Assembly (NCBI GenBank): GCA_030913385.1
Contig: CP133159.1
Span: forward strand, 4,567,001-4,631,000
From: Cytophagaceae bacterium ABcell3
Lineage (GTDB): Bacteria > Bacteroidota > Bacteroidia > Cytophagales > Cytophagaceae
Direction: 5' to 3'
Length of the DNA: 64,000 nucleotides
Both the position numbers and the translations under genes were made by a program. This document shows positions 56,251 through 59,907 of this stretch, one piece after another (positions within the stretch are counted from its first letter, which is position 1; each line of letters begins with the position of its first letter). The notes beneath the pieces are model-generated. The model was given only the letters and a program-made list of their open reading frames with translations. It had not been told where the DNA came from and ran no database searches.

Positions 56251-57720
56251 CAATGTCGTTTAGTTAGTGATAATGGTCACAGTTTTTTATAGTTCATCGA
56301 GTGTGGTTTTTTTATTTTTTTAGGTCGATCTACTTTTCTGTCTGGCCTTACAACTTCTTTGGTTCTGGAGACAATATCATCAAATGCTTTAACGGCTTTT
56401 CGGTATTTTCTTTTAAGGAAAATTGGGATAAGCATGTCCATTAAGTTTGCTAAAGCATTTGTCTTATTAGGTTTTTGTTGGTATTTTCGCTTCTTTTTTC
56501 CTTTCTCTTCTTTCTGTTCCTCTTCCTTTTGTTCCTGTTCCTTTTGCTCCTCCTCATATTCAGCCAGGACTTTAGCTTCAATAGGATGGCAATATGCTGC
56601 ACATAGTGTTAAAAGGAAAACTTTGGCATGAAAATCCTGACGTACAGCCTTTGCCGTTTTTCCAGAAAAAGATTCCAGATCAAGACGACTTTTCAGTAAT
56701 TTATAGCACTCTTCCTCATTCCACCGATAATGATAAAGCCGCTTAAACTCCTCAATATCGTATTTTTTTAAATCTGTCAGGGAAGTACAAAGTATTTCTG
56801 TCTCACCTGTTTCAAGCTTTACTTTTATAAGCCTGCAGTCTATTTCTTGACTGATAATTTCCGGGTATTCACTCAGTTTACCATGGTCTTTTTTAGGGAG
56901 CCGAAACTTCACTATGCGTTCCTGTTCAGGGCTGGCCATCAGACTTTCAACTTCTTTCCACCATTCATTCTCAAGCCTTATGCAAAACTCTACCCCCTTG
57001 GCTTTAAGCAGAAAAAACAACCAAAAACAAGGATATCCCCTGTCCAGAAGGAGCAAATCGCCCTTTTCAACTTTTTTAAGGTGCTGTACAAGCAAATCTC
57101 TTTCGCTTGAAGCATAAGGTGCTATTTCTGCATCGAGAGTTATGTGATTAAGTACATCATAAAGCATAGAACCCATTGCCATAGAGCGAGGAGTGCTTGC
57201 TTTAGGCCCAAACATATATTCCCCAAATTCTTCTTTTACTGTGGGATGATTTGGAAGTTGAAGACGGGTGCCATCAACAGCAAGAGTACGCATGCCATGC
57301 CATGTGTAATAGGAGGCCTTTTTGTAGAAAAAATCCACACTTATTTCGTTCAACCTAACAAATGCCCATGGATTTAGCTTGGATCTGGACTGAGAAAGGG
57401 CGCTTTTAGTAACCTCGCGAATATTAAAATCGCTATTGGACATTGCTTTGTAAAATCTGTCAAGATCACGTTGCAATGCTGACTTAAAAGACATGATAAA
57501 AACAATTAACTTCCTGATATCCAGCTTTCTTTGTCTAGAGAATACCCTTTCACAGCCGTCTTTAACACGGCTAATGAACTCTTTACAGTTAATCTCATGG
57601 CTGATATGTTTGGTTAGTTCTTCTCTATAGTCAGAGTTTTTATTAGTCCCTATATACCCTCACAATTTACAAAAAAATATCTTACCAATACAACAAGAAA
57701 AGCTTAACTAAACGACATTG
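56251..57720 (-). mobile_element. IS4-family insertion sequence, 1470 bp
   Basis: Bounded by perfect 16-base inverted repeats, CAATGTCGTTTAGTTA at 56251-56266 and its reverse complement at 57705-57720. These in turn are flanked by a perfect 10-base duplication (ATATCAGATT). One transposase gene fills it on the minus strand. Target duplications of 10 or more bases are typical of IS4. Both ends and the target copies are flawless, so the insertion looks recent. Confidence 0.96.
56277..57494 (-). CDS. IS4-family DDE transposase
   Basis: 405 residues. The catalytic Asp residues lie in LAVDGTRLQLP and LLLLDRGYP. The Glu lies in the IS4 YREK signature, seen here as YHYRWNEEECYKLLK (Y-x2-R-x3-E-x6-K fits exactly). 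A lysine/glutamate-rich insert (EEEQKEQEQKEEEQKEE, about 310-330) is present near the C-terminus, followed by a basic tail ending KKPHSMNYKKL. All catalytic residues are intact, so the element could still move. It has a lower GC content than the rhs shell around it. Confidence 0.95.
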   Translation of the reverse strand: MSFKSALQRDLDRFYKAMSNSDFNIREVTKSALSQSRSKLNPWAFVRLNEISVDFFYKKASYYTWHGMRTLAVDGTRLQLPNHPTVKEEFGEYMFGPKASTPRSMAMGSMLYDVLNHITLDAEIAPYASSERDLLVQHLKKVEKGDLLLLDRGYPCFWLFFLLKAKGVEFCIRLENEWWKEVESLMASPEQERIVKFRLPKKDHGKLSEYPEIISQEIDCRLIKVKLETGETEILCTSLTDLKKYDIEEFKRLYHYRWNEEECYKLLKSRLDLESFSGKTAKAVRQDFHAKVFLLTLCAAYCHPIEAKVLAEYEEEQKEQEQKEEEQKEEKGKKKRKYQQKPNKTNALANLMDMLIPIFLKRKYRKAVKAFDDIVSRTKEVVRPDRKVDRPKKIKKPHSMNYKKL

Positions 57721-57730
57721 ATATCAGATT
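57721..57730. repeat. Target-site duplication, right copy
   Basis: ATATCAGATT, identical to 56241-56250. Confidence 0.95.
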
Positions 57731-58170
57731 TTACAATTGAGGGAAATATATTTAATTGTTGTGAACAGTGGATGATGTACAACAAAGCTTTTTTATTTGG
57801 CGACAAAGATAAGGCAAAGCAGATTTTGGAAGAAAAAAGACCAAATGTTCAACGAAAGCTTGGGAGACAAGTTCGTTTTTTTAAAGAAGAAAAGTGGCTG
57901 CAATATCGATATAGGATTGTTTTTCAAGGAAATTATGCTAAGTTCACACAAAATGATAAACTTAAAGTGTATTTATTAAATACCGGAAATAAAAAACTAG
58001 CCGAATCTAGCCCGACAGATTTAATATGGGGAATAGGGTTACCTGAAGATAGTCCTTATAAATTTGATGAATCTAAATGGAGGGGAGAAAACTTGCTTGG
58101 AGAAGTTTTAATGAAAGTAAGAGAATGTATAAGAACAGGATATCAACCCTTTAAATAAGAATGCACAGTA

Positions 58171-58430
58171 TCCTGCACGACACCAGGCAAAACCATATTT
58201 ACCTTATAAATATTCTAAATATTAGATTATCAAACAATTACATTTTAATGATCTGCTGGTTATATATTTCTCTTATTGACAGTTTCTTAAATGGCTTTTG
58301 GGTTGCCGGGTTTTAACAAATCCCGCAACCGATCCGGTTTATTTTCACCCTTTCCTTGCCAGCTTCGGCGACCTGAACCGAGAACTGATGTATATCGGGC
58401 GCTTTTCCGCTCATTACTTCCAGAGAGATA
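58171..58430. repeat. Inter-cassette spacer, copy 2
   Basis: Begins TCCTGCACGACACCAGGCAA and follows the NADAR gene. Related to 53460-53720 along its length, including the right end (CCAGCTTCGGCGACCTGAA against TCAGCCTCGGGAGTTTGAA). It fills the gap before copy C. Confidence 0.7.
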
Positions 58431-58869
58431 AGTACGACAAACTGGGGCTGAGACAGCACATTGGCAGCAGCCTCGGTGCGGACATACAGCTGGGACGCAA
58501 CGAGTCAGGTTTTGTCACCAGTATGCAGGCCGGCCAGCAGGGCATGAAACTCCCCTGGCAGGCAGAGATCACCTACAACAGCCTTGGACAGGAACTGGAC
58601 AGGGTACTCGGCATCGGCAACGTAAAGGACCAATTCGCCTACGACCTGTCGGGACGCCCGAGGGAACAGAAGACCTGGAACGGCACCGGTGCCCGTCGCC
58701 TGCACCGCCACAAGCAATATTACTGGCACCCCAACGACCGCCTGCAGCGCATCCACGACGTGCTGACAGACACTGCCACTAGGTTCCGGCACGACAGCTT
58801 CGGCAACCTGATCGAAAGCCTGACCGTTCAGGAATATCGTATACAGGGAAAGGAAAACTATTTTAGAGA

Positions 58870-58926
58870 GGGCGGAGCGTTAAAAAATGATTTGGTAAAT
58901 CATTTTAGCGACGAGCCAGCTTGCAG
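58870..58926 (+). repeat. 57-base palindromic element, copy 1
   Basis: Opens GGGCGGAGCGTTAAAAAATG, has a central hairpin AAATGATTT-GGT-AAATCATTT and closes AGCGACGAGCCAGCTTGCAG. It differs from copy 2 at only two bases in the last ten. Confidence 0.88.
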
Positions 58927-59334
58927 GGCTGCAACATCTTCCGTGAAGAAGAAAAGAAAGACCGGAAATACGGCGCGGGCGGAAAACTGCTGGAAAATAA
59001 GGGAGATAAGTATACTTATGATGAAGAAGGCAATTTAATAAAGAAGTCCACCAAAGACGGCAACTGGCATTATGAGTGGAACGGCAACGGCAGCCTGAAA
59101 CAAGTGACCCGCCTCGATAACAAAACCGTCAGTTTCGAGTATGATGCTTTAGGGCGCAGGACCGCCAAGTTATTTGACGGAAAGATTACAAGATGGGTCT
59201 GGGACGGGAATACGCCAATTCACGAATGGCATTACAAAACAGAAGACCGTCCAATAGACGTGGTGGACGAGTTCGGGTTTATTTCTAAGGACAGAGAAGA
59301 GCCTGTAGAAAACCTCATTACCTGGGTTTCGATG

Positions 59335-59391
59335 GGGCGGAGCGTTAAAAAATGATTTGGTAAATCATTTTAGCGACGAGCCAGCCTGTAG
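59335..59391 (+). repeat. 57-base palindromic element, copy 2
   Basis: Same as copy 1 apart from its end (CCAGCCTGTAG). It interrupts the codons for TWVFDDGSFKPAAK of the rhs shell; homology to copies A and B resumes directly after it with GGAGCACTCAAGCCAGC. Confidence 0.88.
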
Positions 59392-59583
59392 TGGGAGCAC
59401 TCAAGCCAGCGGCAAAAATTGTAGACGGAGAGTATTATTCCATCATCAATGATTATCTTGGCACCCCGAAGGAAGCCTATGACAAATACAGCGACTGCGT
59501 CTGGAAGTGCGAGCATGAAGCATACGGGAAGGTGAAAAGTTGCGAAGGGGAGGTGGATTTTACACCTTTCAGATTTCAGGGGG

Positions 59584-59608
59584 GGGCGGAGCGTAAAGAA
59601 ATGATTTG
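59584..59608 (+). repeat. 57-base palindromic element, partial copy 3
   Basis: GGGCGGAGCGTAAAGAAATG then ATTTG: the left 25 bases of the element with two or three changes, after which similarity ends. It marks the point where the rhs core breaks off and the small antitoxin-like gene begins. Confidence 0.7.
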
Positions 59609-59613
59609 TTGAA

Positions 59614-59907
59614 ATGAGTAAAGAAAGAGGTCTTGAGCAATATTATTCAGGAGATAAAGTATGGGACAATTGGGTACAGAAGGCTAAGGAGGATTATTGG
59701 AAAAATACAGATTATCAAAAAGAGCTACTATCTCTACTGGATAAAAGTTTTGACCTAGCAGTTGTAATTTATGCAAAACATGGTAAAGGAAGTATTTGCT
59801 GGCTTAGCAAGGAAGTTCCTGCGTTGGAAAACCTAACTCCAATTGAATGCCTGAAAACAAAGGAACTAATGCTCAGGTTAAGAGAATGCTTATTAAGAAT
59901 GCCCTGA
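59614..59907 (+). CDS. Small protein with MbcA/ParS/Xre-antitoxin-like (DUF2384) C-terminus
   Basis: 97 residues. The C-terminal half, ICWLSKEVPALENLTPIECL then KELMLRLRECLLRMP, follows the W-L-x-x-P-x-x-x-L-x-x-x-T-P-x-x-x-L order of the toxin-binding domain found in MbcA/ParS/Xre antitoxins. Those usually neutralise RES-domain NAD-consuming toxins. No helix-turn-helix is seen in its short N-terminus. In this setting it is best read as an orphan immunity gene whose toxin tip was lost from copy C. The start lies six bases after the partial third palindromic element. Confidence 0.65.
   Translation: MSKERGLEQYYSGDKVWDNWVQKAKEDYWKNTDYQKELLSLLDKSFDLAVVIYAKHGKGSICWLSKEVPALENLTPIECLKTKELMLRLRECLLRMP

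Follow-up and report, generated by a model that had tools for sequence, protein, structure and literature searches.

A structured family of short, apparently mobile palindromes in Bacteroidota chromosomes, with copies in a broken rhs cassette

The palindromic repeats that interrupt an rhs cassette of Cytophagaceae bacterium ABcell3 are probably copies of a short element, mobile but not autonomous, in the chromosomes of Bacteroidota; it would be recognised by the fold of one strand and would spread when the folded single strand is grafted into exposed hairpins. We put the probability of this reading at roughly 0.55, and we class the repeats among the short mobile palindromes, as a new family that has unusual features. 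They lie in a stretch of 64,000 nucleotides, referred to here as the window (positions 4,567,001-4,631,000 on the single 5.1-Mb contig CP133159.1). Short mobile palindromes are common in bacteria, and the movement of those without a RAYT is an open question. The element described here folds clearly, with many compensatory changes, and its filled and empty sites are sharply defined; there may be a rule of orientation, and some carriers are named strains, so that its mover and the strand that the mover uses are directly testable.

The window holds two complete copies and one half copy, which are given here with their surroundings:

58869..58928, + strand: element copy 1, complete, inside the rhs core, where it takes the place of target bases as compared with intact rhs paralogues
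58884..58906, + strand: tip stem-loop of copy 1, with a 10-bp stem and a 3-base loop, the sequence-variable and length-constant part of the family
59334..59393, + strand: element copy 2, complete, in the same rhs fragment, 3′ of copy 1
59583..59609 (start also given as 59584), + strand: third copy, 5′ half only and without the fold, at the junction of the rhs core and the next small gene
58298..59038, + strand: ORF of the host rhs fragment (RHS_repeat PF05593, E 5.7e-6), put out of frame by copy 1
58921..59355, + strand: host rhs fragment in another frame (RHS_repeat PF05593, E 2.4e-8), ending in copy 2
59614..59907, + strand: small gene directly 3′ of the half copy, a 97-aa ORF

The earlier note on this DNA had reported a 57-base unit in two near-identical copies, with a partial third, inside a broken rhs cassette, and our coordinates agree, with 2 of the 57 bases differing between 58870-58926 and 59335-59391. 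The hairpin arms that it had placed at the centre, AAATGATTT/AAATCATTT, are present in the window copies, and reading of the frames bore out that one frame is open across the 57 bases while the frame of the host is broken by the element; intact rhs paralogues elsewhere in this genome carry no insert. The idea that a length of 57, being a multiple of three, is an adaptation to the reading frame did not hold up: the unit naturally spans about 60 bp (58869-58928 and 59334-59393) rather than exactly 57, its G-rich 3′ tail is loosely conserved, and the copies in rhs and reverse transcriptase (RT) genes shift the frame or add stops. The element accounts for part of the damage to rhs cassettes and introns in the window genome. 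Folded as single-stranded DNA, the + strands of the full copies were better than their shuffles (z -2.96 and -3.91), and the half copy was no better (z +0.68). The 97-aa ORF had no match in Pfam, and its position suggests that it may be a partner gene of the rhs tip. Just upstream of the rhs fragment, a DDE transposase gene (56277-57494, - strand; PF01609, E 9.3e-15) adjoins an ORF with a NADAR domain (57718-58158).

To follow the element beyond the window we used DNA searches, pattern scans and covariance models. A DNA search returned three more rhs copies on contig 1 of the window genome, G000 (starts 340018, 339708 and 886441; E 4.7e-25 to 1.3e-20), as well as diverged copies within group II intron copies. 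A covariance model built from ten copies (R1) gave 18 matches in the window genome, 13 of them above 76 bits and the half copy not counted among them, in rhs, in group II introns and in other places; a second model (R2) served for later scans. Matches were carried by the window genome and five of its 58 relatives (6/59 in all), one of which, G049, alone has 58, and in a sample of the phylum, scanned with R2 at E 1e-5 under stricter filters, by the window genome and seven of 295 others (8/296). Further carriers, listed as G348 to G352, hold 3, 9, 32, 9 and 24 matches, respectively, and the carrier G045 holds 3. The pattern scan of 84,980 species genomes yielded 105 stretches, which, from record titles and general taxonomy, we take to be from Bacteroidota, save one titled 'uncultured bacterium'. 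Named carriers include Cecembia lonarensis, Reichenbachiella agariperforans and Algoriphagus species. The presence of the element is patchy even inside one genus (g49), with one genome having it and two listed without it, and its copies are in places tandem or clustered. Viral contigs (searched with the exact pattern) and plasmid and phage records (blastn with one copy) gave no element match, and our searches of the open-access literature brought up no description of the element. The earlier note had envisaged that the unit might be present only here, through local duplication or assembly error; the dispersed matches in the genome and the phylum rule this out.

Whether the copies always sit in rhs cores had also been raised in that note. 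They do not, and an rhs-specific element is ruled out by copies that lie in introns, between genes or next to tRNA genes. Of the 101 copies away from locus edges, a crude ORF caller placed 88 in intergenic DNA (27 of 128 copies, at locus edges, were omitted), and the upstream gene was on the same strand as the element for 57 of 86 copies; scans with short patterns for rhs and RT lacked the sensitivity to be used (1 and 0 of the 105 loci, and 7 and 0 in a second scan). The intergenic location, the shared strand and the strong fold are what a host-used RNA element would also present, such as a 3′ UTR hairpin, a terminator or a processing site that selection maintains and that travels with adjoining genes. 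This explanation is very improbable in our view: the element is patchy within a genus and is present in decayed rhs and introns, no terminator-like site was called at either window copy, and no curated covariance model of Rfam matched it (14 loci, E 0.5).

From the outside inwards, the fold has a GGC/GCC stem and a GA bulge, then a short helix in which two G.A pairs are stacked, a GTNAA bulge on one side and a tip hairpin of 10 bp. In 97 distinct copies, aligned to fit the R1 structure, standard pairs made up 95.9% of the pair cells, as compared with 79.8% after shuffling and at most 49.9% with partners slid, and covariation reached 0.488, as compared with 0.176 and at most 0.114; the counted structure was itself drawn from covariation on the same alignment, and its pairs 6-55 and 9-52 are absent from the R1 structure. 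Pair 6-55 takes all four Watson-Crick combinations (UA 30, CG 29, AU 13, GC 8, UG 4, GU 1, other 11), and pair 9-52 is GC in 63 copies, AU in 15, GU in 10, CG in 4 and other in 4. The tandem G.A stands between co-varying pairs; 90 of 95 copies have it at one position and 87 of 94 at the other, with A-T instead in five copies per position. Tip length is exactly 23 nt in 84 of the 97 copies; the sequence of the tip stem varies with compensation, its pairs changing together at constant length. Mere perfecting of the palindrome would presumably remove the G.A mismatches and the GTNAA bulge, and since both are kept we infer that they are recognised features. At the foot of the tip, the junction pair 17-49 is G.T in 67 copies, A-T in 20, T.T in 9 and never A.C (G.T or A-T in 87/96), which suggests that the + strand as written is the functional one; the tip pairs 18-48 to 26-39, with 12 A.C cells versus 8 G.T, lend this no support.

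Clean pairs of filled and empty sites were found in rhs paralogues, introns and other repeats of several genera. We used 13 of 31 filled-empty rows, having dropped seven in which a site recurred, one false hit, six that were tandem or compared with another copy, and four with large losses or poor flank similarity. At 11 of these 13 empty sites 5-11 bp of the target are replaced and at the other two none is lost, with no constant target duplication among the 13; from 43 more copies in two high-copy genomes no usable new empty site was obtained, as the alignments ran in simple repeats or tandem copies. Three neighbouring copies of a group II intron give a series of their own: copy A is intact and without the element, another has one element, and a decayed one has four. 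Other copies lie between the end of the RT gene and domain V of decayed introns. Filled and empty paralogues and the patchy presence show, at the level of sequence comparison, that the family inserts into new sites, and the earlier proposal of a palindromic element able to settle inside genes stands, with copies in rhs and RT genes.

Some sites carry larger changes, namely a loss of about 480 bp at the element junction in intron copy C, a 363-bp gap in L098 and a deletion of 148 bp in L088. Direct repeats surround the copy in L166, L049 and L047, with alignment lengths of 80, 224 and 354 (the last is gapped and extends into the element), and in self-comparisons of the loci such flanking repeats were mostly duplications with the copy at the junction. 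The direct-repeat test kept 126 of 156 copies, the rest being near a locus end or near-identical; like the flank-complementarity test below, it took one copy per strand of each large locus of the window genome and included one false pattern hit (L015). The tip, too, can change as a unit. Among 54 same-genome copy pairs with at most two differences in the 30 outer positions, most tips differ by 0-3, and six pairs, all from the MAG G352, have tips that differ by 12-17 and are still complementary and of equal length. In that MAG, copies L225, L227 and L228 have one common foreign tip, and copies L222 and L226 bear a second palindrome, CGCCAGCTGGCG, in the tip loop; in Cecembia, one copy in L246 and two in L247 hold another palindrome within the lower bulge. 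Copies at deletion junctions and between direct repeats, tips that differ en bloc in one MAG with the remainder nearly identical, and palindromes nested in loop or bulge could all be produced without a dedicated enzyme if replication forks, stalled at hairpins, used an element copy as template for a time and then returned, palindromes spreading in this way as junction sequence. Template switching leaves it unexplained why the tandem G.A, the GTNAA without pairing partners and a tip of exact length are conserved across genera, and we judge it decidedly unlikely.

A second class of tiny palindromes, CCTGTCCCGA-n-TCGGGA or CCCGATAGCTATCGGG, was seen in intron copy C, in the tip of an intron domain V and in the lower bulge of the element (L017:10500-12250 and L204 in the window genome, L246 and L247 in Cecembia). 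The sequence TCCCGATAGCTATCGGGA, with up to 2 mismatches allowed, is absent from the window.

Insertions tend to fall in small hairpins, domain V of introns and the ends of tRNA genes. By eye, many of the empty sites form small hairpins, and the local hairpin at the 13 empty sites was stronger than at control positions within 350 bp, with a median percentile of 0.14 (KS p 0.006, Fisher 1.5e-4); the idea of hairpin targets arose from these same 13 sites, and three of them were no better than the median position. Complementarity between the flanks of filled sites was modestly raised over that of swapped flanks, a weak effect with p of 0.084, 0.009, 0.039 and 0.028 for flanks of 20, 30, 40 and 60 (4/70, 11/98, 14/95 and 11/95 filled sites, respectively, beyond the 5% quantile of swapped flanks, some of these sites being tandem arrays). 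PMC3733652 reports REPs within palindromes in other bacteria, so hairpin targeting would not be unique to this element. As for tRNA genes, 9 of the 105 loci have one no more than 400 bp from a copy; these loci hold 22 tRNAs in all, and the remaining 13 give an estimate of roughly two by chance. In 27 of the 160 left flanks that were distinct after collapse of near-identical copies and removal of the false hit L015, a tRNA-like segment of at least 11 bases ends no more than 3 bases from the element, and shifts of 15, 25 and 35 bases gave 6, 10 and 14 as a control in which terminal matches were not counted separately. Fourteen of the 27 reach the tRNA terminus or stop one base short of it (tRNA-Leu, Ser, Glu, Met, Gln and Arg); three of these, Leu, Ser and Glu, were each hit at one and the same position in three genomes. 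Exact matches of at least 12 bases between a flank and a tRNA of the same locus occurred in 13 of 128 comparisons versus 3 of 2484 in the null, two of the 13 being artefacts of L150, in which the copy starts at the contig end. At L171, L180, L123, L097 and L175 a partial tRNA end accompanies an element copy, in some cases with an inverted piece of tRNA, and is repeated or adjoins an intact tRNA gene.

Orientation and neighbours were examined at 179 distinct sites, after collapse and removal of the false hit L015. All 26 copies with a recognisable neighbour within 500 bp are in sense to it (12 intron RT and 14 rhs), with 11 of the 14 rhs cases resting on ORFs from element loci; the rhs ORFs of L089 and L098 score above the cut-off for the Rhs-associated core TIGR03696, and the L131 ORF falls slightly short of it, with 30.9 of 32.5 bits. 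Because intron and rhs copies have sites in common, we estimate about 15 independent insertions among the 26, and several intron copies at one site may equal a single insertion. Co-directional intergenic copies have a weak bias (29 sense versus 16 antisense). No sense bias was seen in a cruder open-frame test (6 sense only, 7 antisense only and 5 both, of 179; 3 to 4, 13 to 23 and 4 to 0, respectively, at other thresholds) or among tRNA-end copies (5 sense versus 9 antisense). Copies at 807-810 kb on the plus strand and at 886 kb on the minus strand of the window genome would speak against the replication strand as the cause of the sense bias, depending on where origin and terminus lie.

Under the grafting of a folded strand that we favour, the sense orientation would follow from exposure of the coding strand or of its RNA. 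Recognition would be by the fold of the + strand and not by its full sequence: a trans-acting enzyme would bind the folded single strand, either a displaced DNA strand or an RNA, and graft it into another exposed hairpin, with part of the target lost. A SINE-like hairpin can also be envisaged, mobile as folded RNA or as the displaced coding strand, grafted in sense into hairpins of transcripts or transcribed genes by an undescribed kind of mover, with the tip as an exchangeable module of fixed length; we consider this doubtful. Movement by RNA proper, as in a bacterial SINE-like element whose transcript is put into transcripts or genes by a reverse transcriptase, is consistent with a + strand fold that has G.T pairs, with 26 of 26 copies in sense and with variable target deletions and duplications. 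It is nevertheless unlikely, given tRNA-end copies without sense bias and carriers in which RVT_1 (PF00078) was not found, 9 of 13 (G049 with 58 element matches, G352 with 24, and G351, G349, G348, G166, G027, G045 and G051). The same absences led us to reject a group II intron RT as the mover. The element as a part of a group II intron was likewise rejected, with RT-like sequence at 12 of the 179 sites and none of the element in the intact intron copy A.

Among the Y1 transposases and reverse transcriptases of the 13 carriers we found no convincing partner enzyme. The earlier note had proposed a search for a REP-associated tyrosine transposase, and the window genome does hold six matches to Y1 transposase (PF01797), none linked to the element. 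Y1 was found in 9 of the 13 carriers and not in G352 (24 element matches), G351 (9), G348 (3) and G045 (3), where RVT_1 was not found either; these absences are not proof, because the genomes are drafts or MAGs (G348 is a one-contig MAG). A REP- or REPIN-type repeat moved by a RAYT or another Y1 transposase of the IS200/IS605 kind would share with the element its size class, palindromy, tandem or clustered copies and insertion into genes and palindromes (PMC3733652), and the six Y1 matches would provide candidates. This origin is nonetheless unlikely in view of the carriers lacking Y1 matches and of the surroundings of the transposase genes: across 43 Y1 loci, with about 1.5 kb on each side, R2 gave one weak element match (L263, 35 bits), and R1 gave none at the first 20. 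Five RAYT-like genes (L077, L079, L080, L082 and L084), of which one belongs to G051 and the other four to the window genome, are flanked by other hairpins, distinct for each, and these are several possible REP/RAYT pairs. A scan of the fetched loci for unpaired halves gave no convincing pair that could enclose a gene as an autonomous version; L123 has two degenerate halves, separated by 474 bases, which enclose a complete copy and also a tRNA gene.

The element is a structured palindrome family of Bacteroidota, REP-like in behaviour and failing the REP, RPE and MITE features that were tested. In REPs the GTAG/CGTC tag stands at the foot of the hairpin, which it heads. The element has no such foot tag, and its 3′ GYAG comes after the hairpin instead (compared with PMC3733652). 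Column 55, where a CGTC tag would stand, varies freely (G 43, A 32, T 14 and C 8 in 97 copies), so CGTC is not conserved. Both REPs and GTAG/CGTC repeats resemble the element as short dispersed palindromes that form clusters and lie in some cases in genes or other palindromes, and CGTC repeats occur in Bacteroidetes among other phyla with no dedicated transposase (PMC3733652). Unlike REPs, of 20-40 bp (PMC3733652), the element has 60 bp, a two-tier fold, the tandem G.A and the GTNAA bulge. It also differs from REPs in a tip of fixed length and free sequence and in usually replacing target bases. We know of no mover for the Rickettsia palindromic elements (RPE). They are like the element in being mobile palindromes that enter reading frames (see PMC3733652). 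Unlike RPE, the element keeps no open host frame, its rhs and RT copies in the window genome breaking the frame or adding stops. The copies traced there sit in rhs and intron genes that have decayed, most others lie between genes, and the phylum is another one. Mitochondrial double-hairpin elements and yeast mitochondrial mobile DNA are, like the element, tiny mobile hairpins, and belong to organelle genomes.

In phage T4 gene 60 and in yeast byp elements, translation hops over the insert and resumes in frame. Read by hand, some of the rhs and RT copies have glycine codons on either side, in frames that could be used. In L128 and L089:3186, a stop directly follows the would-be landing codon, and ribosome bypass would not be a general feature of the copies.

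MITEs are non-autonomous and dispersed like the element, which unlike them has neither the terminal inverted repeat pair of a transposon nor a constant target duplication. Element copies within longer units that have inverted ends and a MITE-like look were seen at L055 and L058 of G020, with a 57-bp inverted match, and by eye at L061 of G049.
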